A DNA stretch of 64,000 nt from Polaribacter vadi (GTDB lineage Bacteria; Bacteroidota; Bacteroidia; Flavobacteriales; Flavobacteriaceae), in the NCBI RefSeq assembly GCF_001761365.1, contig NZ_CP017477.1, positions 2,718,001 through 2,782,000 on the forward strand. The letters run 5' to 3'. Numbering within the stretch: position 1 is the first letter of the stretch; each line of letters opens with the position of its first letter. Positions 3,287 through 60,977 of the stretch are shown piece by piece. Position numbers and translations under genes: made by a program. The notes beneath the pieces were generated by a model. The model did not search any database. It was not told the DNA's origin and was given only the letters and a program-made list of their open reading frames with translations.

Positions 3287-3615
3287 ACTCTTAAAAACAA
3301 CTCAGCGTAACTTTTTGTCCATTCGTCGAAGGTTTAAAACCAATAATCGATTTTAAATACAAAAAACGTATAAGTTTTGTTTCTTTGATCAACATTTATA
3401 AGTTGGGGGATTTATAAGTTTTAAATATAGGAAGCTGATTTTTATCAGCTTCTTTTTTTTTGCAATAAAGTTTTTATTTTACTTAAGAATTCGCCTCCTT
3501 TTCTTTTAATTTGTTAGAAATTCTTTTCGTAATTTGCTAATAGAAGTAAGAAATTATTAAGAAGTCTTTAAACTTTTTATAGTTTCTTTAGTCTTAATTA
3601 AATAATTCTTTAATT
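3287..3615 (+). other. Non-coding stretch with long 3' leader and terminator
   Basis: A 329-base gap without a gene. It holds about 140 bases between the LytTR stop and the hairpin at 3431, including the less AT-rich segment around 3310-3335 (GTCCATTCGTCGAAGG). After the terminator the remainder is AT-rich and probably contains the promoter of the DUF1800 gene, although no clean TAnnTTTG was found. Confidence 0.5.
3431..3461 (+). terminator. Rho-independent terminator
   Basis: A perfect 9-bp stem (GAAGCTGAT / ATCAGCTTC) with a TTTT loop, followed by nine Ts. Confidence 0.9.
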
Positions 3616-5007: not shown

Positions 5008-5016
5008 TTTAAAAAT

Positions 5017-6207: not shown

Positions 6208-6228
6208 TAAAAATTGTTAGTTGAATTA

Positions 6229-6248
6229 ATTCTGATGAATATCAGAAT
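6229..6248. terminator. Weak hairpin between convergent genes
   Basis: An 8-bp stem (ATTCTGAT / ATCAGAAT) with a GAAT loop between the DUF1501 gene and the convergent LacI gene. The T tail is poor, so it could be a bidirectional terminator or chance. Confidence 0.4.
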
Positions 6249-6304
6249 CTATTATTTAATAAGCAATAATTAAATCAATATAAAAAATTAGTTTTATTTA
6301 AAAA

Positions 6305-7336
6305 TTAAGATTTTTTCTTCAACGAAGAATCTCTAATCACCAATTCAGCTTCTAAAATAATTTTATTTAAAGACTGTTTACTATTTGGTTTTTTAGAATG
6401 ATCCAAAAAAGTTTCAGCAGCAATTTTGCCTATTTTATAAGCATGTTGATTTACACTAGTTATTGAAGGTGTAACCATAGCTGTAAAAGGTTCATCACCA
6501 AAACCAACTAAAGCAATTTCCTCAGGAATTTTAATGTTTTGTTCGTTTAAAACTTGTAAAGCACCTAAAGCAGCAAAATCTCCAGCAGCATAAACAGCAT
6601 CAGGTCTGTTTTTCAACCCTAATAATTGGAGCATTTTTTCTCTCCCATCCTCAATAGTTAGGTTTGTTTCAATTAAAAGTTCTTCATCTAAAGGTAAATT
6701 ATGTTTTTTTAAAGCATCAACATAACCACGAATTCTGTTGTTATAAATTCTTGTTCTTTTATAACCACCAATATGTGCAATTCGTTTGCAACCTTGTTCA
6801 ACAAGATGATTTACAATTAAATGACTACTATTGTAATCATCAATTCCAATATAATCAACATTTAAATCGTTTTCACCTCTATCAAAAGTAATCAACGGAA
6901 TTCCTGCAGCTTTTACCTTTTCAAGATATTCTAAATCTACAGTTTCATTTGCCATAGAAACAATAATTCCATCAACCTGCAAATACAATAAAGTGTCAAT
7001 ATTTTTGCATTCTTTTTTAAACGATTCGTTAGATTGTGTAATAATTACATTATAGCCTTCTTTATCTAAACCTTCTTCAATATTATGAATTGCTGACGAA
7101 AAGAAATTACTGTTTGTTTTAGGAACAATTACACCCACCAATTTGCTTTTTCCACTTCGTAAAGCACTTGCTAAATGATTGGGTTGATAATTTAAATTTT
7201 CAGCAACTTGCCTAACTGCTTTTTTAGTTTTATCGCTGATTCTAGCATCATTATGTAACGCTTTAGAAACTGCTGCTGCAGAAATATTTAAAACATTTGC
7301 AATATCTTTTATGGTAGTTTTCTTTTTAATTGCCAA
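6305..7336 (-). CDS. LacI family transcriptional regulator (kdgK-eda side)
   Basis: A 343-residue LacI/GalR repressor. An N-terminal HTH (TTIKDIANVLNISAAAVSKAL) and hinge (YQPNHLASALRSGKS) precede a periplasmic-binding-protein-like effector domain (LVGVIVPKTNSNFF, DGIIVSMANE, IGIDDYNSSHLIVNHL, VGFGDEPF). It is divergent from kdgK. The shared intergenic region carries two near-identical 16-bp dyads, one over its own start site and one in the kdgK leader, so it most likely represses itself and kdgK-eda. The inducer is probably 2-keto-3-deoxygluconate or a precursor, which is inference. Confidence 0.93.
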   Translation of the reverse strand: MAIKKKTTIKDIANVLNISAAAVSKALHNDARISDKTKKAVRQVAENLNYQPNHLASALRSGKSKLVGVIVPKTNSNFFSSAIHNIEEGLDKEGYNVIITQSNESFKKECKNIDTLLYLQVDGIIVSMANETVDLEYLEKVKAAGIPLITFDRGENDLNVDYIGIDDYNSSHLIVNHLVEQGCKRIAHIGGYKRTRIYNNRIRGYVDALKKHNLPLDEELLIETNLTIEDGREKMLQLLGLKNRPDAVYAAGDFAALGALQVLNEQNIKIPEEIALVGFGDEPFTAMVTPSITSVNQHAYKIGKIAAETFLDHSKKPNSKQSLNKIILEAELVIRDSSLKKKS

Positions 7337-7350
7337 TTTTTTATATATTT

Positions 7351-7366
7351 GCTTAATCGTTTAAAC
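7351..7366. promoter_or_regulatory. LacI-family operator O1
   Basis: Read on the minus strand this is GTTTAAACGATTAAGC, matching 14 of 16 positions of the site at 7439-7454. It abuts the -7 element of the lacI gene, a position suited to autorepression. Confidence 0.7.
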
Positions 7367-7397
7367 AAATATAGTGTTTGAATTAGAATAATCAAAA
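7366..7397 (-). promoter_or_regulatory. Promoter of the lacI-type gene
   Basis: On the minus strand TTTTG (7397-7393), a 19-base spacer and TATATTTG (7373-7366): both Bacteroidetes promoter boxes at the usual spacing. Operator O1 begins at the last base of the -7 box. Confidence 0.65.
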
Positions 7398-7438
7398 CAA
7401 ATAGCAAATTATGGGTTTTGATTTTATTTTGATTTTTT

Positions 7439-7454
7439 GGTTAAACGTTTAAGC
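7439..7454. promoter_or_regulatory. LacI-family operator O2 in the kdgK leader
   Basis: GGTTAAACGTTTAAGC, with the perfect 12-bp palindrome TTAAACGTTTAA at its core. It lies 30 bases before the kdgK ATG, where a bound repressor would block initiation or elongation. Confidence 0.75.
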
Positions 7455-7484
7455 AAGTTAATTAATTTTATAAATTATATAAAA

Positions 7485-8531
7485 ATGGGTAAAGTAGTAA
7501 CGTTTGGAGAAATTATGTTAAGATTGGCTCCACAAGGATTTTTAAGATTTTCTCAAGCAAGTAGTTTTGATGTTGTTTATGGAGGAGGAGAATCTAATGT
7601 AGCAGTTTCTTTAGCAAATTATGGAGTAGATGTAGATTTTGTAACACGTTTACCAAAAAATGATATTGGTGCTTGTGCAATGATGGAAATGCGTAAAAGA
7701 GGCGTAAATGTAAACAAGATTGTTTATGGTGGAGACAGATTAGGAATCTACTTTTTAGAGACTGGTGCAGTTTCTAGAGGTTCTAAAGTGGTTTATGACA
7801 GAGCACATTCTGCAATTGCAGAAATAGAATCTGGAATGATAGATTGGGATACTGTTTTTGATGGTGTAGAATGGTTTCATTGGACAGGAATTACACCTGC
7901 AATTTCTCAAGGAGCTGCAGATGTGTGTTTAGAAGCTGTAAAAGCTGCAAGTGTAAAAGGAATTACCATTTCTACAGATTTAAATTATAGAGCAAAACTT
8001 TGGAATTTTTGTGATGATGCTCACAGAGAAAAAATAATGACAGAGTTAACATCTTACTGTGACATTGTTTTAGGAAACGAAGAAGATGCAGAAATGCACT
8101 TTGGAATTAAACCAGCAGGAATTTCTGTTCAAACAGAAGGTCATAATGTAAAAGCGGAAGCATTTTTATCTGTTTGTGAGCAAATGATGGAGAAATTTCC
8201 AAGAGCTAAAAAAGTAATTACAACTTTAAGAGGTTCAATATCAGCTTCACACAATACTTGGGCTGGTGTTTTATATGATGGAAAACAATTATTACAAACG
8301 CGTCAATATCAAATTACAGATATTGTTGATAGAGTTGGTGGTGGAGATTCCTTTATGGGAGGTTTAATTTACGGTTTATTAAAATACCCAGAAGACGATC
8401 AAAATGCATTAGATTTTGCAGTGGCAGCTTCTGCTCTAAAACATACTATTAAAGGTGATGCAAACTTAGCAACTGTTGCAGAAGTAGAGAAATTAATGGG
8501 TGGTGATGCTTCTGGAAGAGTAGCACGTTAA
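7485..8531 (+). CDS. kdgK: 2-dehydro-3-deoxygluconokinase
   Basis: A PfkB/ribokinase-family sugar kinase of 348 residues that phosphorylates 2-keto-3-deoxygluconate to KDPG with ATP. Landmarks: the N-terminal VVTFGEIMLRLAPQG, the substrate-lid segment VYGGGESNVAVSLAN, and the C-terminal PfkB signature DRVGGGDSFMGGLIYG with the catalytic Asp. The ATG at 7485 is preferred; the in-frame start at 7437 would translate through operator O2. It is followed after 89 bases by eda, the next enzyme of the pathway, so the two form a two-gene unit under the divergent LacI regulator. Confidence 0.93.
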   Translation: MGKVVTFGEIMLRLAPQGFLRFSQASSFDVVYGGGESNVAVSLANYGVDVDFVTRLPKNDIGACAMMEMRKRGVNVNKIVYGGDRLGIYFLETGAVSRGSKVVYDRAHSAIAEIESGMIDWDTVFDGVEWFHWTGITPAISQGAADVCLEAVKAASVKGITISTDLNYRAKLWNFCDDAHREKIMTELTSYCDIVLGNEEDAEMHFGIKPAGISVQTEGHNVKAEAFLSVCEQMMEKFPRAKKVITTLRGSISASHNTWAGVLYDGKQLLQTRQYQITDIVDRVGGGDSFMGGLIYGLLKYPEDDQNALDFAVAASALKHTIKGDANLATVAEVEKLMGGDASGRVAR

Positions 8532-8540
8532 TAGGGTTTA

Positions 8541-8617
8541 ATTGTTGAATTGTGTAAATGTTTAAAAGTTACATAAGGCAACAATTACACGATTAATCAA
8601 ATAAACAATTACACAAT
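8541..8617 (+). repeat. Nested inverted repeats in the kdgK-eda spacer
   Basis: ATTGTGTAAATGTTT (8549-8563) pairs with AAACAATTACACAAT (8603-8617), 14 of 15 bases. ATTGTTG (8541-8547) pairs with CAACAAT (8579-8585). The two hairpins share sequence, so they would compete. A sequence resembling the LacI operators (TTACACGATTAATC, 8585-8598) sits inside. Confidence 0.55.
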
Positions 8618-47296: not shown

Positions 47297-48109
47297 TTAG
47301 TCTTCCCAAATTATACTAAATGTGTGTTTATTATTCATTAAGCAATGTTCGTAAAATGGTTTTTCAGCTTGACTATCTTTCCAAACATTAAACCAATCCA
47401 TAGCAAAAACTTTTTGAGTATTTTTGAATTTTCTACCTAAATTAAAATACTCGCCAGCAACAGTATCTTCTGGAAGTTTATCTTTACCAAACTTTAAAAA
47501 CTTAAAAGGAAAATCATTTGAAGACCAATACCATTTAATATTATTTTCATAAGCATAAACTACCATTATTGGATGCGAACCAATAGAACAAAACCTTAAA
47601 GCTGTAGCTGAAATACTGGTGCCAAATTTTTTCGCTAATTCTTGTATAATTCTAAATTCAAATTTTTTATTTGAACAATATTTTCTAAATCTTAATTCTG
47701 GCATTAATAGACAGGATGCAAAAAAATCCGCTTGTCTTTCAGCTCTGTTCCTACTTTTAAAACCTGTTAATGAACAATGGCTTGGAGATAATCCTTTCAA
47801 TAATGCATTCCGATGGTCATCTATAAAATAATGACCTAACTCGTGACCAAAAGTAAAACGAGCTCTTTCCGAATAAGCATGACCTAATTTATCAATATTA
47901 ATATAAATATGAAAGTTTCTATTGGAGCATTCTAATAAACCATCAAATGCATCAGAATAGTTTCCAAAACTATAAGAAATTTTTTTTCTTTCAGCTAAAA
48001 CTATAGGATCGATTTGACTGTCAGGAAAGTAATAATCTGAAATATCGCTTGCTAAATCATTTAAATTAACAACATCGTATTGAGAAAGAAAATCATTTTT
48101 TCGCTTCAT
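47297..48109 (-). CDS. ImmA/IrrE family metallo-endopeptidase
   Basis: A 270-residue protein with the zinc-protease motif in RARFTFGHELGHYFIDDHR (HExxH) and a downstream Glu-containing helix (NRAERQADFFASCLLMPELR). ImmA/IrrE proteases cleave repressors or anti-sigma-type proteins in mobile-element and stress switches. It is the last gene of a three-gene unit behind an ECF-like sigma factor and a 100-residue protein whose reading frame overlaps it by 17 bases, so the small protein could be its substrate or partner. Confidence 0.9.
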   Translation of the reverse strand: MKRKNDFLSQYDVVNLNDLASDISDYYFPDSQIDPIVLAERKKISYSFGNYSDAFDGLLECSNRNFHIYINIDKLGHAYSERARFTFGHELGHYFIDDHRNALLKGLSPSHCSLTGFKSRNRAERQADFFASCLLMPELRFRKYCSNKKFEFRIIQELAKKFGTSISATALRFCSIGSHPIMVVYAYENNIKWYWSSNDFPFKFLKFGKDKLPEDTVAGEYFNLGRKFKNTQKVFAMDWFNVWKDSQAEKPFYEHCLMNNKHTFSIIWED

Positions 48110-48395
48110 TTTTATCTTTACGCATTTTTTCTCTTATTTCATCTGTGATTTTTTTACCCTCTCTCGCTGCCATAGATAATGGAATGATAGCTTTATTTTC
48201 ATTTAATTTTATTACTTTTTTTGTGATAGAAATATCTTTATCTATTATGTTTTCAATAGAAGGCCACTCTTTTGGGGATTCAAAATCCGCCGTAAATTTA
48301 TTTTCAAAAGCTATAATTTCTTCTTCAGATTGGGGCATTGAGTAACCAAATTTTTTCAATAATTGTCCAATATCTTTTTTGCTATTTGTTTCCAT
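48093..48395 (-). CDS. Small charged protein between sigma factor and protease
   Basis: A 100-residue protein of unknown family: MPQSEEEIIAFENKFTADFE, then PKEWPSIENIIDKDI, and a Lys/Glu-rich helical end (KKITDEIREKMRKDKNEAKK). Overlap with the protease gene and a 12-base gap to the sigma factor gene show one operon. An anti-sigma or substrate role is a guess from position only. Confidence 0.6.
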   Translation of the reverse strand: METNSKKDIGQLLKKFGYSMPQSEEEIIAFENKFTADFESPKEWPSIENIIDKDISITKKVIKLNENKAIIPLSMAAREGKKITDEIREKMRKDKNEAKK

Positions 48396-48407
48396 TTTAC
48401 TGAATTT

Positions 48408-49049
48408 TTAATTGCTTTTTTTGATAGATTCTCTAATTTGTTTTTTAACACGTGAAATTATTTGACGTATGTTATCCCAAGTAGTTTCAAACATAGACTC
48501 CATAAGCTTTATATTTTCACTTCTCATTTTTTTTCCTTCTTCATAATGTTGAAAATATACACTTATGATGTCTCTCTTTTTAGGATCAAGATTTGCTAAA
48601 ATTACATCTAATTGATTATTTTTTTTAGGTAGTTCCTTTTCTAAAACTTCGTACTCATTATCTTTTAAATTAAAAAGCCAATCATTGTTGGGGTCATCAA
48701 CTTTAGATGTTTCATTTTTTAAATATGATTCATTATTTCTTAAATACTCCAATCTTTTATAATGTGCAATTGTAGCTAAATAAGCTTTAAAACCAGAGTC
48801 TGATGATCTATGTTTTTCTGGTATATAATCCCAATCTAATGGATTGTTCCAAACATGATTAAATATTTCATTGAGTATCGTTTTAGAGAATTCCTCTTTA
48901 TGTGATTTATAGTTAATGTTTTTCATGATTACATTGTATAAAAACAATCTGTAATACTCATAAACTTTAGAAAAAGAAACTTTAGCTTCTTTGAGATTTA
49001 TTTCTTTTTCTGAAATAATTAATAAATGATATTCTATATCCAATAGCAT
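48408..49049 (-). CDS. ECF-like RNA polymerase sigma factor
   Basis: About 213 residues from the Met at 49049. Region 2 is in KEEFSKTILNEIFNHVWNNP and SGFKAYLATIAHYKRLEYLR; region 4 is DPKKRDIISVYFQHYEEGKK then FETTWDNIRQIISRVKKQIR. The region 4 HTH is diverged, so a sigma-like regulator is an alternative. The Met at 49076 is rejected because a promoter -7 box (TATATTTG, minus strand 49081-49074) and a dyad overlap it. It heads the unit with the small protein and the ImmA protease, and diverges from the cyclase operon. Confidence 0.75.
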   Translation of the reverse strand: MLLDIEYHLLIISEKEINLKEAKVSFSKVYEYYRLFLYNVIMKNINYKSHKEEFSKTILNEIFNHVWNNPLDWDYIPEKHRSSDSGFKAYLATIAHYKRLEYLRNNESYLKNETSKVDDPNNDWLFNLKDNEYEVLEKELPKKNNQLDVILANLDPKKRDIISVYFQHYEEGKKMRSENIKLMESMFETTWDNIRQIISRVKKQIRESIKKSN

Positions 49050-49069
49050 TATAATGATATGTGTTTTCC

Positions 49070-49090
49070 GTGACAAATATATTTTGTCAC
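49070..49090. promoter_or_regulatory. Operator dyad between the sigma factor and cyclase operons
   Basis: GTGACAAA-TATAT-TTTGTCAC: perfect 8-bp arms. On the minus strand it contains TATATTTG, an exact -7 box for the sigma factor gene, so a protein bound here would control it and could affect the divergent defence operon. Confidence 0.65.
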
Positions 49091-49165: not shown

Positions 49166-49339
49166 ATGGCAACAAATGGTAAAAGCGGAGATAATCGCAG
49201 ACATGGAGCAGTCAAAGGACGTTCACAAGTATTAAATCCTAAAACAAATCTTTATGTAAAGAGAGATGCAGAAACAGGAAAATTTATGGACGTAAAAACT
49301 ACTGGAGGAAAATTTAAAGGAGTACGTAAAGAAAAATAA
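49166..49339 (+). CDS. Small basic protein heading the cyclase operon
   Basis: A 57-residue protein: MATNGKSGDNRRHGAVKGRS, then QVLNPKTNLYVKRDAETGKF, MDVKTTGG and a basic end. It is Gly/Lys/Arg-rich with no membrane segment. Small proteins of this look occur in many bacteria with unknown function. It starts 9 bases upstream of the LRAT gene's ATG and shares its transcript. Confidence 0.75.
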   Translation: MATNGKSGDNRRHGAVKGRSQVLNPKTNLYVKRDAETGKFMDVKTTGGKFKGVRKEK

Positions 49340-49348
49340 ATTTTAAAA

Positions 49349-49783
49349 ATGAATGTTATTAAAAATTATAATACACTATTTAATAGCCTGGAACCAATCG
49401 ATGTTATCGTGGCTAAAAAAAGAGTTGGTTTAGGAAGAATTTTGAACCACTATATTGTTTATTTAGGTAATGGTGTATTCGTTGGGAATTTAAAAGGTAG
49501 AGTAAAACAAGTAACACAAATTGAACTTTATGATTTGCTTAAAGTTTATGAACCTGTTGAAATTAGAAAATTTACTGGAACACAATTAGATGCAAGAGAA
49601 GCCATATTTAGAGTTAAGCAAAAGCTAGGACAACCTTACAGTTTTTTAGGCTTCAATTGTGAACATTTTGCCAATTGGGTACAATATGGTAAAGAAACAA
49701 GTAGTCAAGTTACCAACGGTTTTTTAATACTGGCTGGTTTAATCACTTTAAAACTAATTACTAATGGAGATGGAAAAAGATAG
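49349..49783 (+). CDS. LRAT-family (NlpC/P60-like) thiol hydrolase/acyltransferase
   Basis: A 144-residue protein of the LRAT fold. The catalytic His is in GRILNHYIVYLG and the catalytic Cys in the hallmark FNCEHFANWVQ (NCEHF). The C-terminus has one hydrophobic segment (GFLILAGLITLKLI), suggesting membrane attachment, as in phospholipid-acting LRAT/HRASLS proteins. In prokaryotic conflict systems LRAT-like domains are thought to attack lipids or peptides. It overlaps the downstream effector gene by 20 bases or 14, depending on which ATG the latter uses. Confidence 0.85.
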   Translation: MNVIKNYNTLFNSLEPIDVIVAKKRVGLGRILNHYIVYLGNGVFVGNLKGRVKQVTQIELYDLLKVYEPVEIRKFTGTQLDAREAIFRVKQKLGQPYSFLGFNCEHFANWVQYGKETSSQVTNGFLILAGLITLKLITNGDGKR

Positions 49784-50255
49784 ATTGAAATATACTATAA
49801 ATAGATTTGACCATTATTTTGATAGTGTTAATAATAAGTCAGCTGTTTATATTGCCATAAATACTTTCATAACTGGTGGTATTATTGTATTACTAACGCA
49901 GACTAATATTGTAAAGGAATTAATTATTTTAGGTCAAGTTATTGTTTGGATATTATTACTTACAGGTATTGTAAATCTTATCGTATTATCTATTGCAAGT
50001 ATTCCATTTTTTTCAATTAAACCAAAATCTATCTATTATTTTGGAGCAATATCTAAAATGACCCAATCTGAATTCAACAAAACTTCTAAAAATTATACTG
50101 AAAAGGAAGAATTAAAAGATTTAAGATCACAAACGTTTGTCCTTTCACAAGGTTTAACAGAAAAATTCACAAAATTAAAATTAGCAGGTTTATTATTGGT
50201 TACACAATTCTTTATGCTTCTATTAATTTTTATAACCATATTAACCAATCTATAA
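49764..50255 (+). CDS. Pycsar-type transmembrane effector
   Basis: A 163-residue membrane protein. After a soluble helix (KDRLKYTINRFDHYFDSVNN KSA region) come helices VYIAINTFITGGIIVLLTQ and VIVWILLLTGIVNLIVLSI, the motif SIPFFSIKP, a charged middle, and a C-terminal helix (LLLVTQFFMLLLIFITIL). This layout matches Pycsar TM effectors, which bind cCMP or cUMP and disrupt the membrane. It lies 11 bases before a nucleotidyl cyclase. Start at 49764 or at the second Met at 49770. Confidence 0.75.
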   Translation: MEMEKDRLKYTINRFDHYFDSVNNKSAVYIAINTFITGGIIVLLTQTNIVKELIILGQVIVWILLLTGIVNLIVLSIASIPFFSIKPKSIYYFGAISKMTQSEFNKTSKNYTEKEELKDLRSQTFVLSQGLTEKFTKLKLAGLLLVTQFFMLLLIFITILTNL

Positions 50256-50266
50256 AATTAAAAATT

Positions 50267-51253
50267 ATGAGTATTTTCAATCCGTATTTGGATGTTATCA
50301 AAAAAGCAGTTGATAAAGATCCGAGAAACCATTACATTAAACTTTTTTCAAAACAACCAGAATCAGATTTTGACACAAGTTACATTAACGAATTACGAAA
50401 TGAGTTACCAGGTTTAGAAAACCTAAATGAATCTTCTCGCTTAGTAAAAGGAATCAATGCACCAGCAGTTGAGAGTTTACCAAGATTAGGAAATCATCCT
50501 GATTTTGCAAATTTACAAAACACTAATAACACGGAAAAGCATTGGATTATTTCAGCTTTTGTTGATGTAAAAAAGAGCACACAACTTTACAATAATTTTG
50601 CCTTAGCTACTGTAGCTTTAATTACGGAAAGTATTATTAAGGCATCTATTCTAGCTGTAAATTTATGTGGTGGTTACGTACATCGAATACAGGGTGACGG
50701 ATTGATGGTTTATTTTGGTGGAAAAAATATTGAGAAAAAACAAGCTACAAAAGATGCTTTAAAAGCTTTTGCTATGATTTCTTATTTTGTGAAAAATGAT
50801 TTAAAAGACTATTTTGATTCGCAAGGGATTAAAGAAATATACACTAGAACAGGTATTGATTTAGGACATGATAACCAAGTACTTTGGATGTACTCTGGGT
50901 TAGGAGATTCAGGGGAAGTCACTACTTGTAGTTTGCATACTAGTCTTGCTCCTAAAATGCAAGCTAACGCCAGTTCAAATGGAATCGTTACAGGACAAAA
51001 TATTATCAATCAAATTTCTTCTTCTGACAAGTATTTTAAAGTAAAGTCTAAACCTATATGGGATTATGAAGATGGGCGATTTTATAATCAATATGATTTT
51101 AATTGGGAAAGATATCTAGTAGATAATGATTTTGCAAAACAAAATATTAAAGGTGATTTGATTTTAGACATCGGTAATACCGTAACACCAATATTAAACC
51201 CAACTCATTTAAGTCCTATTGCAGAGATAAATAAACCTTATTATAATTTTTAA
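50267..51253 (+). CDS. Class III adenylate/guanylate-cyclase-fold enzyme (PycC-like)
   Basis: A 328-residue soluble cyclase. The first metal-binding Asp lies in SAFVDVKKSTQLYNNFALAT and the second in VHRIQGDGLMVYFGG; the C-terminal half has RTGIDLGHDNQVLWMYSGLG and GEVTTCSLHTSLAPKMQANA. These features match pyrimidine cyclases of Pycsar anti-phage systems, where the enzyme makes cCMP or cUMP on infection and activates the adjacent effector. Base specificity cannot be read with certainty. Its stop overlaps the start of the next gene (position 51253). Confidence 0.85.
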   Translation: MSIFNPYLDVIKKAVDKDPRNHYIKLFSKQPESDFDTSYINELRNELPGLENLNESSRLVKGINAPAVESLPRLGNHPDFANLQNTNNTEKHWIISAFVDVKKSTQLYNNFALATVALITESIIKASILAVNLCGGYVHRIQGDGLMVYFGGKNIEKKQATKDALKAFAMISYFVKNDLKDYFDSQGIKEIYTRTGIDLGHDNQVLWMYSGLGDSGEVTTCSLHTSLAPKMQANASSNGIVTGQNIINQISSSDKYFKVKSKPIWDYEDGRFYNQYDFNWERYLVDNDFAKQNIKGDLILDIGNTVTPILNPTHLSPIAEINKPYYNF

Positions 51254-51912
51254 TGAATTCTGCTCTTAAAAAAGACATAGATAAGTTTCAAAATACTTAT
51301 TATAATTTTAAGATTACTAAAAATGAGAATTATGCTATTTTAAGTGGTATTATTACTGTTTTTGATGTTAATAATATGCCTTGGGAAAATTATGGTATTG
51401 ATATATTTGTACCAACTAATAATTATCCTCACGTTACACCTATAGTTGTTGAAACAACTAAAAATATTGATAGAAGTTGGGATTTTCATATATCAGACGA
51501 AGGTTTATGCTGTCTTGCAATAACCCATAAACTAATTTTAGCAAAAAGGAGTGGTATTAATTTAATTAATTTTTACCAAAAATTTATCTACCCATTTTTT
51601 GCAAACCATCAATATAAATTAAAAACAGGCAAATATGCTAATGGAGAGTTTGAGCACCAAGAGAAAGGCATCATACAATTTTATCAAGAAGAATTAGAGA
51701 CAGACAATCTTTTATATATTGAAACAATCCTCCAAATTGGAATAGGGAAACTTAAAATTGGAAATAATGATTTATGTCCAATTTGTAGGGATAAAAAATT
51801 TAAAAGATGTTGTAAGATTAAAGTCTTAAAAATAGAGAAGTATGGTTTGAAACAACTTAAAAAAGATTTAGATATTGTTAAAAATGAAATTCTAAAATAT
51901 AACAACCTTTAA
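51253..51912 (+). CDS. E2-like (UBC-fold) protein with C-terminal SEC-C zinc motif
   Basis: A 219-residue protein. NYPHVTPIVVETTKN and WDFHISDEGLCCLAI follow the pattern of ubiquitin-conjugating enzymes (YPxxxP, then the catalytic Cys after the conserved His region), so Cys in GLCCLA may be the thioester site. The C-terminus has CPICRDKKFKRCC, a SEC-C zinc-binding motif. The start overlaps the cyclase stop by one base, so it belongs to the same operon. In CBASS systems an E2 module modifies the cyclase; a parallel role here is inference. Confidence 0.7.
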   Translation: MNSALKKDIDKFQNTYYNFKITKNENYAILSGIITVFDVNNMPWENYGIDIFVPTNNYPHVTPIVVETTKNIDRSWDFHISDEGLCCLAITHKLILAKRSGINLINFYQKFIYPFFANHQYKLKTGKYANGEFEHQEKGIIQFYQEELETDNLLYIETILQIGIGKLKIGNNDLCPICRDKKFKRCCKIKVLKIEKYGLKQLKKDLDIVKNEILKYNNL

Positions 51913-52213: not shown

Positions 52214-53689
52214 TTAAATTATCTTAAGTACCACATCATCTTCATCATTAAAAGCATTACAGGCCTCCAAATGTTTTTCAACCTCATTCATATTATCTGC
52301 TTTTATTGTTGCGCTAAATTCCTGTGCCCTTCTTAACATTTTCACATAAACTATTGGGTCCTGCTTTCTAGTCAATTTTCGCAAAGCGCCAATGTAATCT
52401 TCTCGATAAACTGTAGGGATAATTATTTTACTTTGGTTTTCTTTTACTAATTCTGCATTCATCATAACTCTAGCTATTCTCCCATTTCCATCTAAAAAAG
52501 GATGTATTTCACTTATCATAAACATCATATATGCTGCTTTTGAAAAAGGATCAGATAAGACCTTATAATAATCAAATCCCTTTATGAGTGTTCCTTTCAC
52601 TAGATTGAAATCTACAAAATGTGTACCACCAGCTTTATTGTTTCTATCTTTAAATTCTCCAGGATTCATTGACTTTCGAGCCTCAAGTAATATACTATGC
52701 CTGTATTGTAAAATATTTAAGAATTCATCTGGATTTGATGGTGTTATGCTCATTTCTTGCCTATCACTTACGATATTATATGTGCCCAACACATCATGAG
52801 AATCTTCATCTCTTGATGGTAATGGCATACCTGTAGTAATAATAGTTTTTGCTTCCTCCAATTCAAACACTGTACCTTCTATATAATTAGAAAAATACGC
52901 TTCAAAGAAGGCAAAGTTTCGAAATGCTTGTTTTGTTCTATTGGTTTCTGAAATATTTTCAAACTCCAATTGAGTCAAATATTGAAATAGTTTTTCAAAT
53001 AGCGCAATTCTTACAGGGTCGTATGGATTACCAAATGCTCTTGCTAATGCAACCGGCGAAGTTAATATTTTTGAAGGTTTTGTTGTTAATAATGCACTAA
53101 TCAATCTGTTTAATTTAGCGAATTCACTCTGCAAGTTAAGCTGTTCGGCTATTTCTTTCGCTCTATCTCTTACTTCATTCAATCCTTGCTCCCCTTTAAC
53201 ACGTACAATTTGCTCTAATTTTTCTTCTAACTCTGGAAGTGTCATCGTTTTAGATTCTGGACCAAGCTGTCTTGACACTTGTAGATTTTCCAGGAATGCT
53301 CTTTCTTGTTGTGAAACGTATAATTCGCCGGAAAATTTACTGTCTCCATCTATTGGACCATAGCCTTCCATAAATCGAATTGTTATACCCGGTAAACTGA
53401 TTTTCTTTGTATAAGTATAGGTTACAAAAATGTTACCAGAAGACGTTGGCTTGAATTCTAGTGCTGACCTATGGCTTAAAACTGAACTTGGATATTGCGC
53501 CCCTAAAATTGTAAAAATATTTTTTCTTATAATTTCTTCAGGCTCATCAGTAAAGTTTGAAGTATATATCCTTGGGGCAATTTTCTTAATCTTACCTACT
53601 TTTTCAAGTTTGGAGATTTGCTTGCTTATGGCCTTGTCACTTGAAGAAAACATTATTTCTTGAAGACGTAAGATGGGATTTTTTTCCAT
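52214..53689 (-). CDS. AbiEi-type antitoxin domain fused to Fic AMP-transferase domain
   Basis: A 491-residue protein. Residues 1-130 form a winged helix (SSSDKAISKQISKLEKVGKI, KKIAPRIYTSN) and an AbiEi-like domain (SVLSHRSALEFKPTSSGNIF). The C-terminal part holds the Fic core HPFLDGNGRIARVMMNAEL (His396) that transfers AMP to protein hydroxyls, with a flap region before it. An inhibitory helix motif (S/T-x-x-x-E-G) is seen in SNYIEGTVFELEEA. It is preceded by an array of six repeats in its promoter, one covering its start codon, which the winged helix probably binds. Confidence 0.88.
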   Translation of the reverse strand: MEKNPILRLQEIMFSSSDKAISKQISKLEKVGKIKKIAPRIYTSNFTDEPEEIIRKNIFTILGAQYPSSVLSHRSALEFKPTSSGNIFVTYTYTKKISLPGITIRFMEGYGPIDGDSKFSGELYVSQQERAFLENLQVSRQLGPESKTMTLPELEEKLEQIVRVKGEQGLNEVRDRAKEIAEQLNLQSEFAKLNRLISALLTTKPSKILTSPVALARAFGNPYDPVRIALFEKLFQYLTQLEFENISETNRTKQAFRNFAFFEAYFSNYIEGTVFELEEAKTIITTGMPLPSRDEDSHDVLGTYNIVSDRQEMSITPSNPDEFLNILQYRHSILLEARKSMNPGEFKDRNNKAGGTHFVDFNLVKGTLIKGFDYYKVLSDPFSKAAYMMFMISEIHPFLDGNGRIARVMMNAELVKENQSKIIIPTVYREDYIGALRKLTRKQDPIVYVKMLRRAQEFSATIKADNMNEVEKHLEACNAFNDEDDVVLKII

Positions 53690-54800: not shown

Positions 54801-56267
54801 ATGAAAAAGCCATCAAACGAAAACATCCTCAATTTTTACCAATCAGATTTATCAATTTATTATAGCATTGATAAAGAAGGAGTCTTAATTTGGAACGAAG
54901 ATTTTTTAAATCAATATTGGCATTATTTTTCAAAATTTATTGAATTAAATGGAAATGAATTAGAGGGATTAACAATTCCAAAATGTAGTCATTTGGCATT
55001 AACTCAAGGTTTATTTGATTTGGAATTAGATGAATTAATTTTCTCTAACTGTATTTTCCTTGATGAAGTTTATTTTGAAAATTTAAAAATAAAAAAAGTA
55101 ATGTTTTCATCGTGTACTTTCGATGAGCGATTAGCTTTTTCATCTTACAATTTTGATTTAATAGAAATAAAGTCTTCAACTTTTGGAAAATCTCTAGAAT
55201 TTTATAATTGTGAGATTAATACCTTTCGGTTAAGTCATAATAAGATTTTTGATTCTATATATCTAAAGGATTCTATTGTTTTTAAAACTTTTATAATGGA
55301 TTATTTATCCGTTGGAGAATCAATAAGTATTGAAAAATGTACTTTATCTCCAAGTTTAGAAAGTGAGGTTTCAGGAATACAAGCAATAAATAAAAACATT
55401 ATAACCTATAAGGATTTTTCAATTGTAGAAAAGCATAAAAGTGACTTTATTAAAAAACCAAATGATAACGCAAAAGAAGGATTTTCACTTAAATTTCTAA
55501 TTAATAATGATGAGTTTATTAATTATGTAAACAAACTTCCTGATAGTGAATTGGGAATGGTAAAAGAGGAGCTAATAAGAAAAATAAACATTATAGATTA
55601 TGAATATAAATATACTTCCTACGAGCCAGTTATCAAATTAGAAAATGTAGTAATAACTCATCCTATAACTTTTTATTCGATTAACCTTAAAAACTTTTAT
55701 TTTAGGAATTCAAATATTGAAAAAGTAATTTTTTCTAATTGTGATTGGAATATTACAGATAGGTTAGTTTTAGCGGAAGAGTATATTAAGAACGGTACGC
55801 AAATTGAAAATCAATTTCGTCAATTAAAAAGAATTTTTAGCAAAGACCATAATTGGAGTATGTCTGGATTTGCTTATATAAGCGAAATGAAAATGACTAG
55901 AAGAAGATTAGGTTATATGATTGATGATGGGAAAAGATATTTAAGCAAAGATGCTTTAGAATATGTTATATATTTTTTTTATGAAAAAATTGGTGGATAT
56001 ACACAAAACTTTACACGACCATTAACAATTTTTTTAATTTCTACATTCATAGTTTTTCCTTTAATATATGTTTTTTTTGAACCAGTAACTGAAATAAAAT
56101 ATGATTTTACTTTTGCACTCAAAAAAAGTATTTCTAATGCTTTTCCGATTGTGAAATTGGATGGAAATATATACACTTATTGGTCATTAAAAGCATTTCA
56201 AATTATATTTAGCACAATACTTCTCACATTTATAGTTCTAGGGTTAAGAAAAAGGTTTAAGCAATAA
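54801..56267 (+). CDS. Membrane protein with pentapeptide-like repeat domains
   Basis: A 488-residue protein. Residues about 60-180 and 270-320 carry A/F-x-x-C/S-x-F type strands (LIFSNCIFLDEVYFENLKIK, VMFSSCTFDERLAFSSYNF, FYFRNSNIEKVIFSNCDW), suggesting a right-handed beta-helix. The C-terminal third has two hydrophobic segments (LTIFLISTFIVFPLIYVFF and FQIIFSTILLTFIVLGLR) flanking an ion-channel-like re-entrant stretch. The REase/NTPase gene starts 72 bases later, so the two may be one defence unit with this protein as membrane effector or sensor. Function unassigned. Confidence 0.65.
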   Translation: MKKPSNENILNFYQSDLSIYYSIDKEGVLIWNEDFLNQYWHYFSKFIELNGNELEGLTIPKCSHLALTQGLFDLELDELIFSNCIFLDEVYFENLKIKKVMFSSCTFDERLAFSSYNFDLIEIKSSTFGKSLEFYNCEINTFRLSHNKIFDSIYLKDSIVFKTFIMDYLSVGESISIEKCTLSPSLESEVSGIQAINKNIITYKDFSIVEKHKSDFIKKPNDNAKEGFSLKFLINNDEFINYVNKLPDSELGMVKEELIRKINIIDYEYKYTSYEPVIKLENVVITHPITFYSINLKNFYFRNSNIEKVIFSNCDWNITDRLVLAEEYIKNGTQIENQFRQLKRIFSKDHNWSMSGFAYISEMKMTRRRLGYMIDDGKRYLSKDALEYVIYFFYEKIGGYTQNFTRPLTIFLISTFIVFPLIYVFFEPVTEIKYDFTFALKKSISNAFPIVKLDGNIYTYWSLKAFQIIFSTILLTFIVLGLRKRFKQ

Positions 56268-56339
56268 AAATAGATTGATGTGAAATTTTTCAAATATAAT
56301 TTTTAACAAAGAACAAAATTTTAAGATATATTTATTGTT

Positions 56340-59300
56340 ATGAAAATTGAATTTGAAGAAAGAGAAATAAAAAATTATTTAAGTTCTAATAAGCCAATTC
56401 TTTATGAAAGAGATTTGGGTTTTCCATACGATAGATTAAACCCTTTTGATTTTGAAGATTTAACTTACTTTACAATTAAACAATATATTGAAAATAATAA
56501 AGATTGGAATGGTTTTGATAAGATTGAATCTTTGGGAGGAGTTAAAGATAAAGGTCGAGATTGTATTTTAAAAAAGAAAGAAATAGTATCAGGAATAATT
56601 CAATGTAAGCATAGTGAAAAGCAATATAAATTAGATAAACCATATTTTGTTAAAGAGCTACTTAAGTTTTTACTATATTCTATCAAAGAGCCATCACTAA
56701 TCGGTAATTATAATGATTTTACCTATTATATTTTTTCTTCTTCAGGTTTTTCTTCTGATACACTAGAGTTGATTAAAAATTTTAATGAATTTATTTTAGA
56801 AGAAACTAAACTCGAATCTTGGGTAAATTCTGTAATAAGTAAGCATTCATCAATTAAAGAATTATTAAATTATAATCACTGTCGAGATAAGTTAGAAATA
56901 TTATTAAGTTCTGTTAAAGTTAAAAAAATAGACATTAATGAGTTTGATTTGATTTTGAGTAATACTTATAATCAAAATATTGTAGATGCTTTTTTTTCAA
57001 TTAAAAAAGTGATTGATATAGAAAAAGCTAAACAAATTATAGAAAAACATATTAATCCAAAAATTAGTTATAATGAAGCTGTAAAGTCACTAGAATCTGC
57101 TTCTTTTGATTTTAGAATATTAACTAATTATTTTGGATTAAATAAAGAAACTCATATTGCAAGAAAAGAAACAAATGATTTATATAATTGGATATTAGCT
57201 GATTTAATTAATAACAAAAAGAATATTGCAGTTTTAGAAGGTAATGCAGGTCTTGGTAAAACGATTATTATAAAAGATTTATATGATAAATTATTTGTTA
57301 ATGAGTTTCCTGTTTTAGCTATTAAAGCTGACAAATATTATGCAGAGAATAGAATAGATTTAGAAAAAAATATCTTTCAAAAACAGAACTTATCTATTAT
57401 GGAGGTTATAGATTGTATGTCTAATAACCATCAAAAAATTGTTGTTCTAATTGACCAACTAGATGCACTTTCTCAAACCTTATCATCAAAGAGAGAGTAT
57501 ATACATACTTATAATAGGCTCATTGATGATTTAACTAAACTTCCAAATGTTAGAATAATAATTTCAGTTAGAAGTTTTGATTTAAAATTTGATTCTGACC
57601 TATCAATTTATAACAGTTCTCATTGTCAAAAATTTTTGACAAGAGAATTGAGTGTTGAAGAAATTAAAACTGTTTTGAGTAAGTTTGGTATTCAAAACAG
57701 GAGTGATAAATTTTTAAATCTACTTAAAATACCTAGTAACTTAAACTTGTTTTGTAAGTTAGATGATAAAACGAGTTTAAATTATGATAGTCTTAAAACA
57801 GTTTATGATTTACAAAACGCATTTTGGGATGAATTGATTTCACAAGCTCATAAATTGGGTTTAAAAGTGAAGGATTTACTTTATACTATTTCAGAAAAAA
57901 TGTATTATGCTCAACAAATAACTATTATTAATAGTTTTGAAGATAGCTTTCAAAAAGAGTTAAATTTCTTAAAAAGTAAGAATGTAATATCGGAAGATAA
58001 AAAAAGTATTCAATTCTTTCATCAGACATTTTATGATTTTGTTTTCTCTAAGCAATTTGTTGAAACAGGGAAATCAATTGTAGGTTATATTAAAAGAGAA
58101 AAGCAAAGTATAAATGTTCGTCAACCTTTAAAAATGGTTTTAGAATATTTAAGAGATTATAATCATAAAATTTATATTAATTCTATAAGAAGAATAATTA
58201 AAGGAAGACATTTTAGATTTCATATTAAATCACTTACAATTATCTCTTTATCTAATATTATTGAGCCCAGTGAAAAAGAAAAGAGAGTTTTTGAAAACCT
58301 TATAAAAGTTAATACATGTTATTTTGAAATGTTCCTTTCTTCTTGTAATTCAGTTGGTTGGACTTCATACTTAATTAATAATGAAGTAATCTATTCTGAA
58401 TTAAATAAAAAAGAAAATGCTTATTTAAAAGTTTTAAGATATTTAAAAGGTAAAAATATAAATCCAAAATTTCTTAAAATTAAAGACTCATTAAATGCTA
58501 ATCTTGTTAGGAAAAATGCTATTATCATATTTTTAAGACATAACCTGAATCAATCTTCTGATGCTGTTTCTAAATTCTTATTGGAACTTCCTGTTAATTT
58601 TTTGGAAAAAGAAAACCTAATACCACGTTTGTTAATTTCTGTTGAGAATTGGAATGATAATTATTTAAAGCTGTTTGAAGAGTATTGTCCATACGTTGAT
58701 ACAGAAAAAAGAAGAGATAATCTTTGGTATTTTCAACATTTAAAGAAAATATCTAATTTAAAACCAAGTTTTACTTTAGAAAAATTAAAACCCGCTTTAG
58801 AAGAAGCATTTAACCCTAAAACAGATGATTTTGATGATTTAAATTACAATTTAAAAGAGATTATTGATAATTTATTTAAGCAAAGCCCTAAACTGTCCTT
58901 TAGTTTTTTTTATGATTTTATGAAGAAGACCGTATTGAAAAATAAAACTATTGATTTTCAAGATTACTACGGAGATTTTATTCAATCTACTTTTTTTAGA
59001 GGAAATGGTTCAACTTATAATTTGCCAAATGCTGACGATGAAATTTATAATAAATTAAAGAACTACCTTGAAGTTTTAGCAAATAAGGAAAAAAATGAAG
59101 CTATTATTTTCATTAAAGAAAATATAAATTCAAACATAATTTCTGTTTTACAATTATGTGCATTTACTCTTAAGGTTAGACCTTCTTTCTTTAGTGATTT
59201 TACATTTGATTTTTTAAATATAATTGATAGTAAAAAAGGTTTTACTGGTTTTGATGATAGACTTCAATTTATATTAAGAGGTTTGATAGGGAAAACTTTT

Positions 59301-60977
59301 AGTTTTTTTACAATACCTCAAAAGGAAAGAGTAGTTGATATAATATTTAATATTAGAAGAGGTAAAGAATATTCAGTTATTAAATGGGAAAAAGAAGTGT
59401 TTCATAGGTTAGAAATTCAAGGTAAAAAGCAATACCTGTTTATTCAGCAGATTCCATTAGATGAAATAAATAGAATCCCAAGGTTAAAGAAAAAAAACCA
59501 AGAGTTTAACCGTAAGTTTGGTGTTTTAAAAGATGATTCTCCTAAGGACGAATCAAGTGGAGGAGGTATAACTTTTGGAGTTGCTAGACCTCTTAAAGAT
59601 TCGGCTTATAAATATATGTCACTTGATGAATGGGAGAATAGTATGACTAAATATAGTGATACTTATAGGGCAGAAGCTTATTCTAGAAAGGGAGGAAAGT
59701 ATGAACATTCTTCAGCTTTTAATGAAGCTGTAAAAAATAATCCTGACAGATTTTATTCACTATTAGAAAAGCTTATTAATGAAAAAAGGGTTTCACAAGA
59801 TTATATATTTAAGGGTTTTAGAGGTTTAGTTGAGGCAGAATACGATTCTTTATCAATCCTTAAAATGTATAAAAATTTAATTTTCATAAAAAATGTAGAA
59901 ACTTCTAATCTTTTAAACTTAATATGGAGTACAGAATATTTAATTTTTGAGAAATTAATTGATAATGTAATATTAGATTTTTTATGTAATCTTTCTTTAA
60001 CACATCCTAGTCCAGATAGAGTTTATAATGAGGGTAAACCTGAGTATGATGTAAATCAAACGGTTAGGTCATCATCTATCAAAATGGTTATGTGGTCAGG
60101 CTATAATAAATCATTTTCTAATCAAATTTTTGAAACTGTTGAGAAAGTTATGCATGATAAGTATGTAGCTGTCAAGGCTTCAATTTTAATTAACGTTCAT
60201 TATATTAAGATTTTAGATAAAAACAGAGCTTTTAAAATTTTTAAAACCTTAACAGATACTAGTCAAATTGAATTATTAAAAAATTCTTTTAAAGCAGCAG
60301 ATTATTATAAATATGAGTTTTTTAGTGAAATGCTTCCATATTTTAATAGAATAATTGAAAATCAAGAACTCCATAAGAGTGGTGCAATAATTCTCTCTAA
60401 AGCAATTATTCAAAACTCAAGCTTTGAAAAGAGCAATGAATTATTAATTAGATTAACAAGAAATAGTGAGGTAGCTATTTGTAGTGTTTTGAATGTTGCC
60501 GAAACAAATTTATTTTATGAAAACAAGTTTAATAAACATTGTTTTCATTTAATTATGAGATATTTAAAAACTGATGGAGATGATATTTCTTCTAGGTATT
60601 CAGGATTTATTTTAAGAGCTGTAAATACAGATAATTTTAAATTATTATACCCTTTTTTACAAGGATATGTTGAATCTAATCATATTATAAAAGAGCCGCG
60701 ATATTTCTATTTACTTTTAATAAGTTGTGCTAAACTTTATCCAGATATGTGTTTGAGCTTGTTTGAAAAAACTTTGCATATAGATGATGATGATCTACAA
60801 AAGAGAGGTTATACGAATGAAGAACCCGTACAATTGACTTTAGCAATTTATAATTCATTAAATAAAAGAGTTAAAAAGGATGATAATGCTTTAAAAAAAT
60901 GTTTAGATATTTTTGATTCTCTTTTAAAGAATCCGAGATTAAGAGAATATGCAAATAAAGCGATTAACTCACTCTAA
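56340..60977 (+). CDS. Mrr-like endonuclease / P-loop NTPase / helical-repeat protein (Avs/NACHT-like candidate)
   Basis: A 1545-residue protein in three parts. Residues about 15-140: restriction-endonuclease-like fold with LGGVKDKGRDCILKKKEIVS and GIIQCKHSEKQY (D then Q-x-K). Residues about 270-600: P-loop NTPase with Walker A VLEGNAGLGKTIIIKDLYDK (301-308) and Walker B IVVLIDQLDALS near 371, then SVRSFDLKF. The remaining 900 residues are helix-rich, HEAT-like. This order is that of anti-phage STAND/NACHT sensors with a nuclease effector. The length and single-gene form fit Avs-like systems; direct homology to a named Avs type is not proven. Confidence 0.75.
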   Translation: MKIEFEEREIKNYLSSNKPILYERDLGFPYDRLNPFDFEDLTYFTIKQYIENNKDWNGFDKIESLGGVKDKGRDCILKKKEIVSGIIQCKHSEKQYKLDKPYFVKELLKFLLYSIKEPSLIGNYNDFTYYIFSSSGFSSDTLELIKNFNEFILEETKLESWVNSVISKHSSIKELLNYNHCRDKLEILLSSVKVKKIDINEFDLILSNTYNQNIVDAFFSIKKVIDIEKAKQIIEKHINPKISYNEAVKSLESASFDFRILTNYFGLNKETHIARKETNDLYNWILADLINNKKNIAVLEGNAGLGKTIIIKDLYDKLFVNEFPVLAIKADKYYAENRIDLEKNIFQKQNLSIMEVIDCMSNNHQKIVVLIDQLDALSQTLSSKREYIHTYNRLIDDLTKLPNVRIIISVRSFDLKFDSDLSIYNSSHCQKFLTRELSVEEIKTVLSKFGIQNRSDKFLNLLKIPSNLNLFCKLDDKTSLNYDSLKTVYDLQNAFWDELISQAHKLGLKVKDLLYTISEKMYYAQQITIINSFEDSFQKELNFLKSKNVISEDKKSIQFFHQTFYDFVFSKQFVETGKSIVGYIKREKQSINVRQPLKMVLEYLRDYNHKIYINSIRRIIKGRHFRFHIKSLTIISLSNIIEPSEKEKRVFENLIKVNTCYFEMFLSSCNSVGWTSYLINNEVIYSELNKKENAYLKVLRYLKGKNINPKFLKIKDSLNANLVRKNAIIIFLRHNLNQSSDAVSKFLLELPVNFLEKENLIPRLLISVENWNDNYLKLFEEYCPYVDTEKRRDNLWYFQHLKKISNLKPSFTLEKLKPALEEAFNPKTDDFDDLNYNLKEIIDNLFKQSPKLSFSFFYDFMKKTVLKNKTIDFQDYYGDFIQSTFFRGNGSTYNLPNADDEIYNKLKNYLEVLANKEKNEAIIFIKENINSNIISVLQLCAFTLKVRPSFFSDFTFDFLNIIDSKKGFTGFDDRLQFILRGLIGKTFSFFTIPQKERVVDIIFNIRRGKEYSVIKWEKEVFHRLEIQGKKQYLFIQQIPLDEINRIPRLKKKNQEFNRKFGVLKDDSPKDESSGGGITFGVARPLKDSAYKYMSLDEWENSMTKYSDTYRAEAYSRKGGKYEHSSAFNEAVKNNPDRFYSLLEKLINEKRVSQDYIFKGFRGLVEAEYDSLSILKMYKNLIFIKNVETSNLLNLIWSTEYLIFEKLIDNVILDFLCNLSLTHPSPDRVYNEGKPEYDVNQTVRSSSIKMVMWSGYNKSFSNQIFETVEKVMHDKYVAVKASILINVHYIKILDKNRAFKIFKTLTDTSQIELLKNSFKAADYYKYEFFSEMLPYFNRIIENQELHKSGAIILSKAIIQNSSFEKSNELLIRLTRNSEVAICSVLNVAETNLFYENKFNKHCFHLIMRYLKTDGDDISSRYSGFILRAVNTDNFKLLYPFLQGYVESNHIIKEPRYFYLLLISCAKLYPDMCLSLFEKTLHIDDDDLQKRGYTNEEPVQLTLAIYNSLNKRVKKDDNALKKCLDIFDSLLKNPRLREYANKAINSL

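Follow-up and report, generated by a model that had tools for sequence, protein, structure and literature searches.

What does an E2-like protein do when its gene directly follows that of a Pycsar cyclase? The question is raised by a 64,000-nucleotide stretch of Polaribacter vadi (contig NZ_CP017477.1, positions 2,718,001 to 2,782,000; hereafter the window, whose positions serve for all coordinates), in which five forward-strand open reading frames (ORFs) encode a small basic protein, an LRAT-fold enzyme, a PycTM-type transmembrane (TM) effector, a class III cyclase (PycC) and an E2-like protein with a SEC-C-type zinc motif (here E2/SEC-C; Table 1). These frames are closely spaced, with overlaps of 20 bases between the LRAT and effector genes and of 1 base between the cyclase and E2 genes. 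Both they and the LRAT and cyclase motifs quoted in the original prediction, which was made from the sequence before the present work, were found as described. Our analysis suggests, with fair likelihood, that this operon is an E2-controlled Pycsar system in which the E2 acts functionally on the C-terminal tail of the cyclase; that it does so by catalysis is the less certain part of the proposal.

The Pycsar identity of the cyclase and its TM neighbour was borne out by profile matches (Table 1), with the PF18967 match of the effector, like the PF04970 match of the LRAT protein, exceeding the Pfam gathering score, and the cognate PycTM effector gene adjoins that of the cyclase. The metal-binding residues Asp100 (FVDVKKST) and Asp144 (QGDGLMVYF) are invariant in 37/37 aligned cyclases. 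The best match among solved chains was 8jsf, a ‘cytidylate cyclase’ (E 1e-64), which we take to be EaPycC of Elizabethkingia anophelis. On that assumption, and allowing for a chain offset of one residue, F98, R140 and Q142 of the cyclase are predicted to correspond to F100, R142 and Q144 of EaPycC, the residues to which CTP selection is attributed in PMC11224242. Because of this match, the product is predicted to be cyclic CMP (cCMP), made from CTP. The cyclase model has an overall predicted local confidence (pLDDT) of 83, with blocks within residues 81-250 at 86-96; modelled residues 301-328 score 53-65, as would be expected for a flexible tail.

It is in this tail that cyclases with and without the E2 differ. 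In most E2/SEC-C-linked PycCs the C-terminus consists of a variable linker and then PIA-x-x-x-K-P-Y-F with a few residues after it. [KR]P[WYF] lies within the last 20 residues of 45/50 unique E2/SEC-C-linked PycC tails and P[WYF] in 49/50, the sole exception being a shortened frame (L064), while Pro324 is invariant in all 37 aligned cyclases (37/37). With duplicate cores and L064 removed, the tail is present in 47/51 E2/SEC-C PycCs, in 0/7 of those linked to a second, shorter E2 class and in 0/9 with neither. PycCs linked to the short E2 have ...N-Q-P-H-R-F-H-Y-E, or a variant of it, at the C-terminus, and where neither E2 is present the C-terminal region is a different one. The alignment to 8jsf stops at residue 318/342, short of the EaPycC C-terminal tail, and a tail-peptide search for that tail gave nothing of use.

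The cyclase and E2 genes are not adjacent by accident. A scan with two cyclase patterns covered 84,980 species, each represented by a single genome, and gave 276 pattern matches and 68 loci. Directly 3' of the cyclase, 54 of these loci carry E2/SEC-C, seven the shorter E2 and seven neither; as the patterns were built from five cyclases that all have E2/SEC-C, 54/68 is not the share among all Pycsar systems. The effector gene lies upstream of the cyclase in 66/68 loci, and effector-cyclase-E2 is the recurrent core. Among 395 Bacteroidota genomes the cyclase was found in eight (E <= 1e-8), four of them with E2/SEC-C (4/8), one with the short E2 (L005) and three with neither by their labels (L006-L008). 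E2/SEC-C itself occurs in 10/395 of these genomes, side by side with the cyclase in all four that have both; the remaining six genes follow a CD-NTase, and therefore 10/10 adjoin a messenger synthase (four PycCs, six CBASS CD-NTases). Given this recurrence in both samples, the E2 as a chance neighbour was rejected, and the co-occurrence of cyclase and E2 in other genomes, on which the original prediction depended, is supported. Plasmids carry the unit too: one Chryseobacterium record has an M78 protease, a partner, a sigma-70 gene, a small gene, a Pycsar effector, a cyclase and a SEC-C protein. In a Pseudomonadota sample the E2/SEC-C profile matched in 33/398 genomes, only three matches spanning the E2 domain and the others the SEC-C half; most of the latter, from open frames of about 900 aa, were taken for SecA. 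A phage-borne system was also considered and rejected, a search of 50,697 phage records with P0005 being empty at E <= 1e-5. Two phage records matched the cyclase at 29-34% identity, hence as other subfamilies, and no relative was among the 24 pattern matches of a viral-contig scan.

The original prediction staked its reading of the last protein on a UBC fold, and structural comparison of the 219-residue model indeed found one. The column of Cys87, a candidate catalytic cysteine placed by sequence motif, is cysteine in 71/71 unique E2/SEC-C proteins, and that of His79 is histidine in 70/71 (one gap). The first and last Cys columns of CPICRDKKFKRCC are likewise kept in 71/71, and the family profile matches the SEC-C of SecA and YchJ. 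This motif had been described as the end of the protein; it occupies residues 175-187 of 219, with helices C-terminal to it. This E2 family is already modelled in the PADLOC database, where it goes by CBASS-type names.

Tails of the same kind are found on enzymes of other folds. Outside the SecA-type loci (L143-L172), sixteen distinct CD-NTases, spanning Bacteroidota, Pseudomonadota, Campylobacterota and Bacillota, are followed by E2/SEC-C; 14/16 carry P[WYF], and 12/16 carry [KR]P[WYF] within their 20 C-terminal residues (for example AKPWIGY, SKPWQRC, DPKPWFKQ, PTKPWRN and TKPWFPGE). On a Runella plasmid an annotated metallo-beta-lactamase (MBL)-fold hydrolase gene precedes E2/SEC-C, and its product ends NAKPWQRG. 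By comparison, [KR]P[WYF] occurs in none of the 22 CD-NTase ORFs listed as lacking E2/SEC-C, of which three (L103, L185 and the second of L195) are incomplete or disrupted, and among 930 other locus ORFs of at least 150 aa it occurs in five and the looser P[WYF] in 57. The sequences are related rather than independent, so no weight is placed on Fisher p-values, for which CD-NTases without E2/SEC-C were taken as 0/17 where the listing gives 22. As a positive control, seven CD-NTases that precede a Cap2-length protein (ThiF in 7/7, Prok-E2_B in 6/7, all cut by the locus end) terminate in Ala/Gly in five cases and SAK in two; C-terminal Ala/Gly is the published rule (PMC11153139). The tail that accompanies the short E2 is also present on both folds (PycC L047, ...GGNAFTDSEGNISSSSVGVKNQPHRFHYEG; CD-NTase L117, ...GGKAYTNTQGQINSNTGIKNESHHYFGS), less uniformly, being seen in 6/7 PycCs and, by eye, in 3/6 CD-NTases.

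The pairing of one tail with the same E2 across unrelated enzymes suggests a single portable control device for different alarm enzymes. Taken further, a tag and E2 module would have been placed on at least three unrelated folds (CD-NTase, class III cyclase and MBL hydrolase), the K-P-aromatic tail being gained with E2/SEC-C and the enzyme itself playing the part of ubiquitin, processed or conjugated via its tail by an E1-less E2; a second tail (...GVKNQPHRFHYE) would serve the second E2 class alike in Pycsar and CBASS. We advance this wider form as a plausible but tentative proposal.

For the CD-NTases, changes were mapped on a tree built from 31 cores after removal of the last 40 residues (omitting L191, L195, L198 and L203, of at least 470 aa, ORFs below 300 aa and, within any one genome, duplicate or partial loci). 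Among four machinery states nine changes were counted, with six for E2/SEC-C, at least five of them forced by supported branches, and six for the motif. Across five independent CD-NTase pairs, the motif tracks E2/SEC-C in 3-4 under strict scoring or 3-5 under relaxed scoring (P[WYFH] in the last 12 residues), and the reverse was never seen. The sister CD-NTases L109 (E2/SEC-C, SSNRPWGKAM) and L183 (Cap2 type, SRSAK), with support 100/99, are one such contrast. Because CD-NTases switch tail and machinery repeatedly, they provide independent evidence for the pairing, and a tail kept by ancestry alone is rejected for them.

Several further loci extend the picture. The Runella cluster (L134, Runella slithyformis pRUNSL03, 2899-8546) consists of the MBL gene with its KPW tail, E2/SEC-C, a hydrophobic protein, two further MBL-fold genes and a serine protease (MBL by annotation), and is E2-linked and without an annotated nucleotide cyclase. 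Locus L136 (Vibrio gigantis plasmid p1, 966-4558) is a CBASS operon with a PDC-S38-like leader, a SAVED effector, a CD-NTase and E2/SEC-C; the solved 9woo_A, which ends DPKPWFKQ, is almost identical to this CD-NTase. On the minus strand of L191 (982-2460) lies a natural fusion of a CD-NTase part, assigned by Pfam, to a short E2, with a tail-like stretch seemingly kept as linker. Several enzymes without a labelled E2 (PycCs L006, L069-L073 and L076; CD-NTases L195, L198 and L203) have a common C-terminal ...YLGHHYIEC... / ...YTGTHSIEC... stretch, perhaps an AGS-C sensor domain.

Against an E2 that controls the cyclase through its tail, a number of points have to be weighed. The case is built from sequence, models and genomic context, and both binding and conjugation are putative. 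To the E2-bearing seeds of the scan, the 4/8 share in Bacteroidota and the background of the looser motif given above must be added two E2/SEC-C-linked CD-NTases without any P-[WYF] (L113 and L173), and the five independent pairs are too few for a sign test to reach 0.05. In a quick PycC tree (omitting L002-L004, taken as near-duplicates, L064, L077, cyclase ORFs below 280 aa and identical cores) E2/SEC-C forms one clade with a single change, so that the tail could be inherited and the pairing is not replicated inside Pycsar; for PycC, ancestry therefore remains a caution. Low model confidence is not confined to the tail, residues 21-70 scoring 55-69 in most blocks. Purified EaPycC is active according to PMC11224242, and therefore the E2 is not strictly needed for cyclisation. 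Outside L140, where an insertion sequence (IS) transposase precedes the E2, 2-12 residues follow the tail aromatic, and as the ends vary no fixed conjugated terminal residue is evident; trimming before coupling and docking without coupling would both be compatible with this. Lastly, Foldseek against the PDB returned no match at E <= 0.001 for E2/SEC-C, the first row being a CorA chain (E 4.1e-3, probability 0.47) with many further CorA rows, and the closest structural matches are TSG101-type ubiquitin E2 variants (UEVs), which are not known to carry a catalytic cysteine.

The closeness to UEVs and the variable tail ends would be expected if E2/SEC-C were a non-catalytic, UEV-like reader whose docking on the KPY/KPW tail keeps the cyclase inhibited, stabilised or in place until phage infection releases it. 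Several TSG101 UEV domains were solved with short Pro-containing peptides, as judged by PDB titles, and a variable tail end is more readily reconciled with docking than with coupling through one fixed terminal residue. A pure reader would, however, have no need of the conserved Cys87 and His79, and in E1-dependent CBASS the tails are conjugated, Cap2 acting on the CD-NTase C-terminus (PMC10097602). We therefore regard a reader as unlikely, although it deserves serious attention. The action of an E2 on the PycC tail is proposed by analogy with that suggested for the E2 and the CD-NTase in E2-only CBASS; the general likeness to CBASS E2 modules, already drawn in the original prediction, is upheld here. 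In the E2-only setting, a Serratia E2 reportedly processes cGAS at its C-terminus and joins cGAS molecules to one another (work ascribed to Yan, 2024).

A different partner for the E2 might be sought in the first gene of the operon. No ThiF/E1 or JAB protein was present among the nine local proteins scanned, the host genome not having been searched for E1, and it could be supposed that the E2 relies on an E1 of the host and a distinct ubiquitin-like protein, such as the 57-residue leader, to modify the cyclase or a phage protein, the tail only recruiting it. In the 68 loci the small upstream gene is PDC-S38 in 22, DUF2188 in 15 and DUF1508 in one (a locus also labelled DUF2188), and PDC-S38 also precedes E2-bearing CBASS operons, which would fit such a role. 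It is nevertheless not found in 39/61 E2-bearing loci and stands beside others without a labelled E2 (L115, L116 and L128), as do some of its occurrences in 20/395 Bacteroidota genomes. Together with the lack of a local E1, this makes a host-E1 pathway very unlikely. Across L010-L077 PDC-S38, DUF2188 and DUF1508 (YegP-like) replace one another in the slot ahead of the effector gene, and yegP is mentioned beside the CapK/CapS regulators in PMC13373217.

The second gene is similarly optional. The LRAT protein has His34 in NHYIVY and Cys104 in NCEHF, both present in 8/8 distinct aligned relatives (the window protein included), and its relatives have hydrophobic C-termini; it resembles a membrane-tethered lipid enzyme of the PLAAT kind. 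Its overlap with the effector gene, the similar gene order in L010 and L023 and the LRAT genes beside other PycCs in L005, L065 and L066 could be read as signs of a five-enzyme system with the LRAT hydrolase as an integral part, for instance a second, lipid-directed effector. As the gene is found in only 4/68 loci, we consider it optional, reject it as a core part of the operon and judge a five-enzyme system most improbable. The claim that all five genes form one fixed unit consequently did not survive the census, in which the leader varies and the LRAT gene is rare.

Nor does the unit start at 49166, as had been proposed. A divergent three-gene cassette (47297-49076) lies upstream and is of a kind that recurs beside such operons; neither it nor the shared C-terminal tail figured in the original prediction. 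Its CapP-like member is an M78 protease by profile (Table 1); the sigma-like protein reaches 30.6 bits against TIGR02937, below the curated cut-off of 42.9, and is called sigma-like only; and the partner matches the capH profile, yet has no helix-turn-helix (HTH) family in Pfam. A divergent sigma-like gene with an M78 protease is present in 23/68 loci, and in 10/68 an M78 protein is co-directional with a gene that we read from its sequence as PIN-like. Cassettes of this kind also stand in front of the CBASS operons L111 and L117, and on a Roseivivax plasmid an ImmA/IrrE gene and two others accompany a CBASS operon in this layout. According to PMC13373217, single-stranded DNA activates CapP, and CapP cleaves CapH; cleavage of the partner here may release the sigma-like activator. 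Several other cassette loci have inverted repeats of different sequence between the divergent units, and 3/15 examined have none.

Based on the above, the system might work as follows. The CapP-like protease, its partner and the sigma-like protein would probably set when the operon is made. PycC would then make a cyclic pyrimidine, most likely cCMP, which would open the PycTM membrane effector and stop the infected cell. The UBC-fold E2 would recognise the flexible cyclase tail (...[N/S]-K-P-Y-F/Y-x). Using Cys87 and needing no E1, it may process this tail and/or couple the cyclase through it to the E2 itself or to another protein, thereby switching or tuning cyclase activity, with activation the presumed outcome.

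Table 1. Features of the operon and its divergent cassette, in window positions.
Feature	Position	Strand	Basis
CapP-like IrrE/M78 metalloprotease	47297..48109	-	PADLOC capP 2.8e-63; PF06114 1.8e-11
Small partner matching the CapH profile; may be an anti-sigma factor or a substrate of the protease	48093..48395	-	PADLOC PDLC04142 E 1.2e-6
Sigma-70/ECF-like protein, divergent cassette	48408..49076	-	TIGR02937 E 2.3e-7; ORF starts at TTG; translation may instead begin at an inner ATG
Perfect inverted repeat GTGACAAATATATTTTGTCAC, 8-base arms, candidate operator	49070..49090	.	Between divergent units
PDC-S38 small basic protein, 57 aa, operon leader, exchangeable slot	49166..49339	+	PADLOC PDLC05010 E 4.5e-32
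LRAT-fold enzyme, 144 aa, His34 and Cys104, hydrophobic C-terminus, optional accessory	49349..49783	+	PF04970 E 1.5e-7
PycTM / 2TM membrane effector, 163 aa	49764..50255	+	PF18967 E 5e-7; PADLOC PDLC00700 1.9e-58, PycTM 1.4e-34
PycC class III pyrimidine cyclase, clade E type, 328 aa	50267..51253	+	PADLOC PycC 5.7e-144
Cyclase C-terminal tail, residues 312-328, ends SPIAEINKPYYNF; KPY element	51200..51250	+	Common to E2/SEC-C-linked CD-NTases
E2-like UBC-fold protein with C-terminal SEC-C zinc motif, 219 aa	51253..51912	+	PADLOC E1-E2/E2 accessory 3.1e-85 / 2.2e-40
E2 active-site stretch HISDEGLCC, His79 to Cys87	51487..51513	+	Conserved columns in unique E2/SEC-C proteins
SEC-C-type zinc motif CPICRDKKFKRCC, residues 175-187	51775..51813	+	Cys columns; family profile

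Downstream of the operon, 52214-53689 encodes a Fic-domain protein (PF02661 E 1.4e-13) whose N-terminus weakly resembles AbiEi antitoxins. A pentapeptide-like protein followed by a 1545-aa NACHT/AAA protein (PADLOC PDC-M54A E 1.5e-11) occupies 54801-60977 and is likely a second defence unit.

If one and the same tail does let E2/SEC-C act on both Pycsar cyclases and an MBL enzyme, ubiquitin-like control would be general and transferable rather than a peculiarity of CBASS, and, should the portable tag hold, Pycsar cyclases would be regulated by ubiquitin-like conjugation. A three-residue tail motif would offer a simple, mutable handle that predicts which enzyme an E2 serves. This bears on what E2-only systems conjugate and on what keeps Pycsar cyclases inactive and then turns them on. 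Among the titles listed in a literature search, none concerned an E2 in Pycsar; the founding Pycsar paper lay outside its coverage, so a prior mention is possible, and the available parts of PMC10952713 and PMC10286901 make no E2-Pycsar connection.

Compared with known systems, the operon has the same cyclase family, F/R/Q residues and adjacent PycTM effector as the clade E Pycsar of EaPycC, to which it adds the E2/SEC-C gene, a conserved tail, exchangeable small-protein and LRAT slots and the divergent protease/sigma-like cassette. The LRAT protein shares the NCEH motif, upstream His and hydrophobic C-terminus of LRAT/PLAAT (H-rev107) lipid enzymes, and is here a small bacterial operon protein. 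As with the CapH+CapP regulators, a CapP-like M78 protease stands beside a small partner, divergent from an immune operon; here there is a third, sigma-like gene and the partner lacks a recognised HTH. With type II CBASS that has Cap2 (E1-E2) and Cap3 it would share the idea that an E2 acts on the C-terminus of an immune enzyme rather than of ubiquitin, whereas here no E1 or JAB is found among the nine local proteins, and the tails, mostly ending in Ala/Gly in Cap2-CBASS, are K-P-aromatic with further residues beyond. A further parallel in layout is type II short (E2-only) CBASS, such as the Serratia marcescens CdnG-E2 (8hsb, 8yjy), in which a stand-alone E2 likewise adjoins the synthase with no local ThiF; the differences lie in the class III cyclase and the SEC-C zinc module, and a CD-NTase of the PDLC00774 type, which would mark a type II CBASS synthase, has no match (0) in the P. 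vadi genome. The ‘distinct class’ of the original prediction is thus more aptly described as an E2-controlled branch of Pycsar, with control parts that CBASS uses too.

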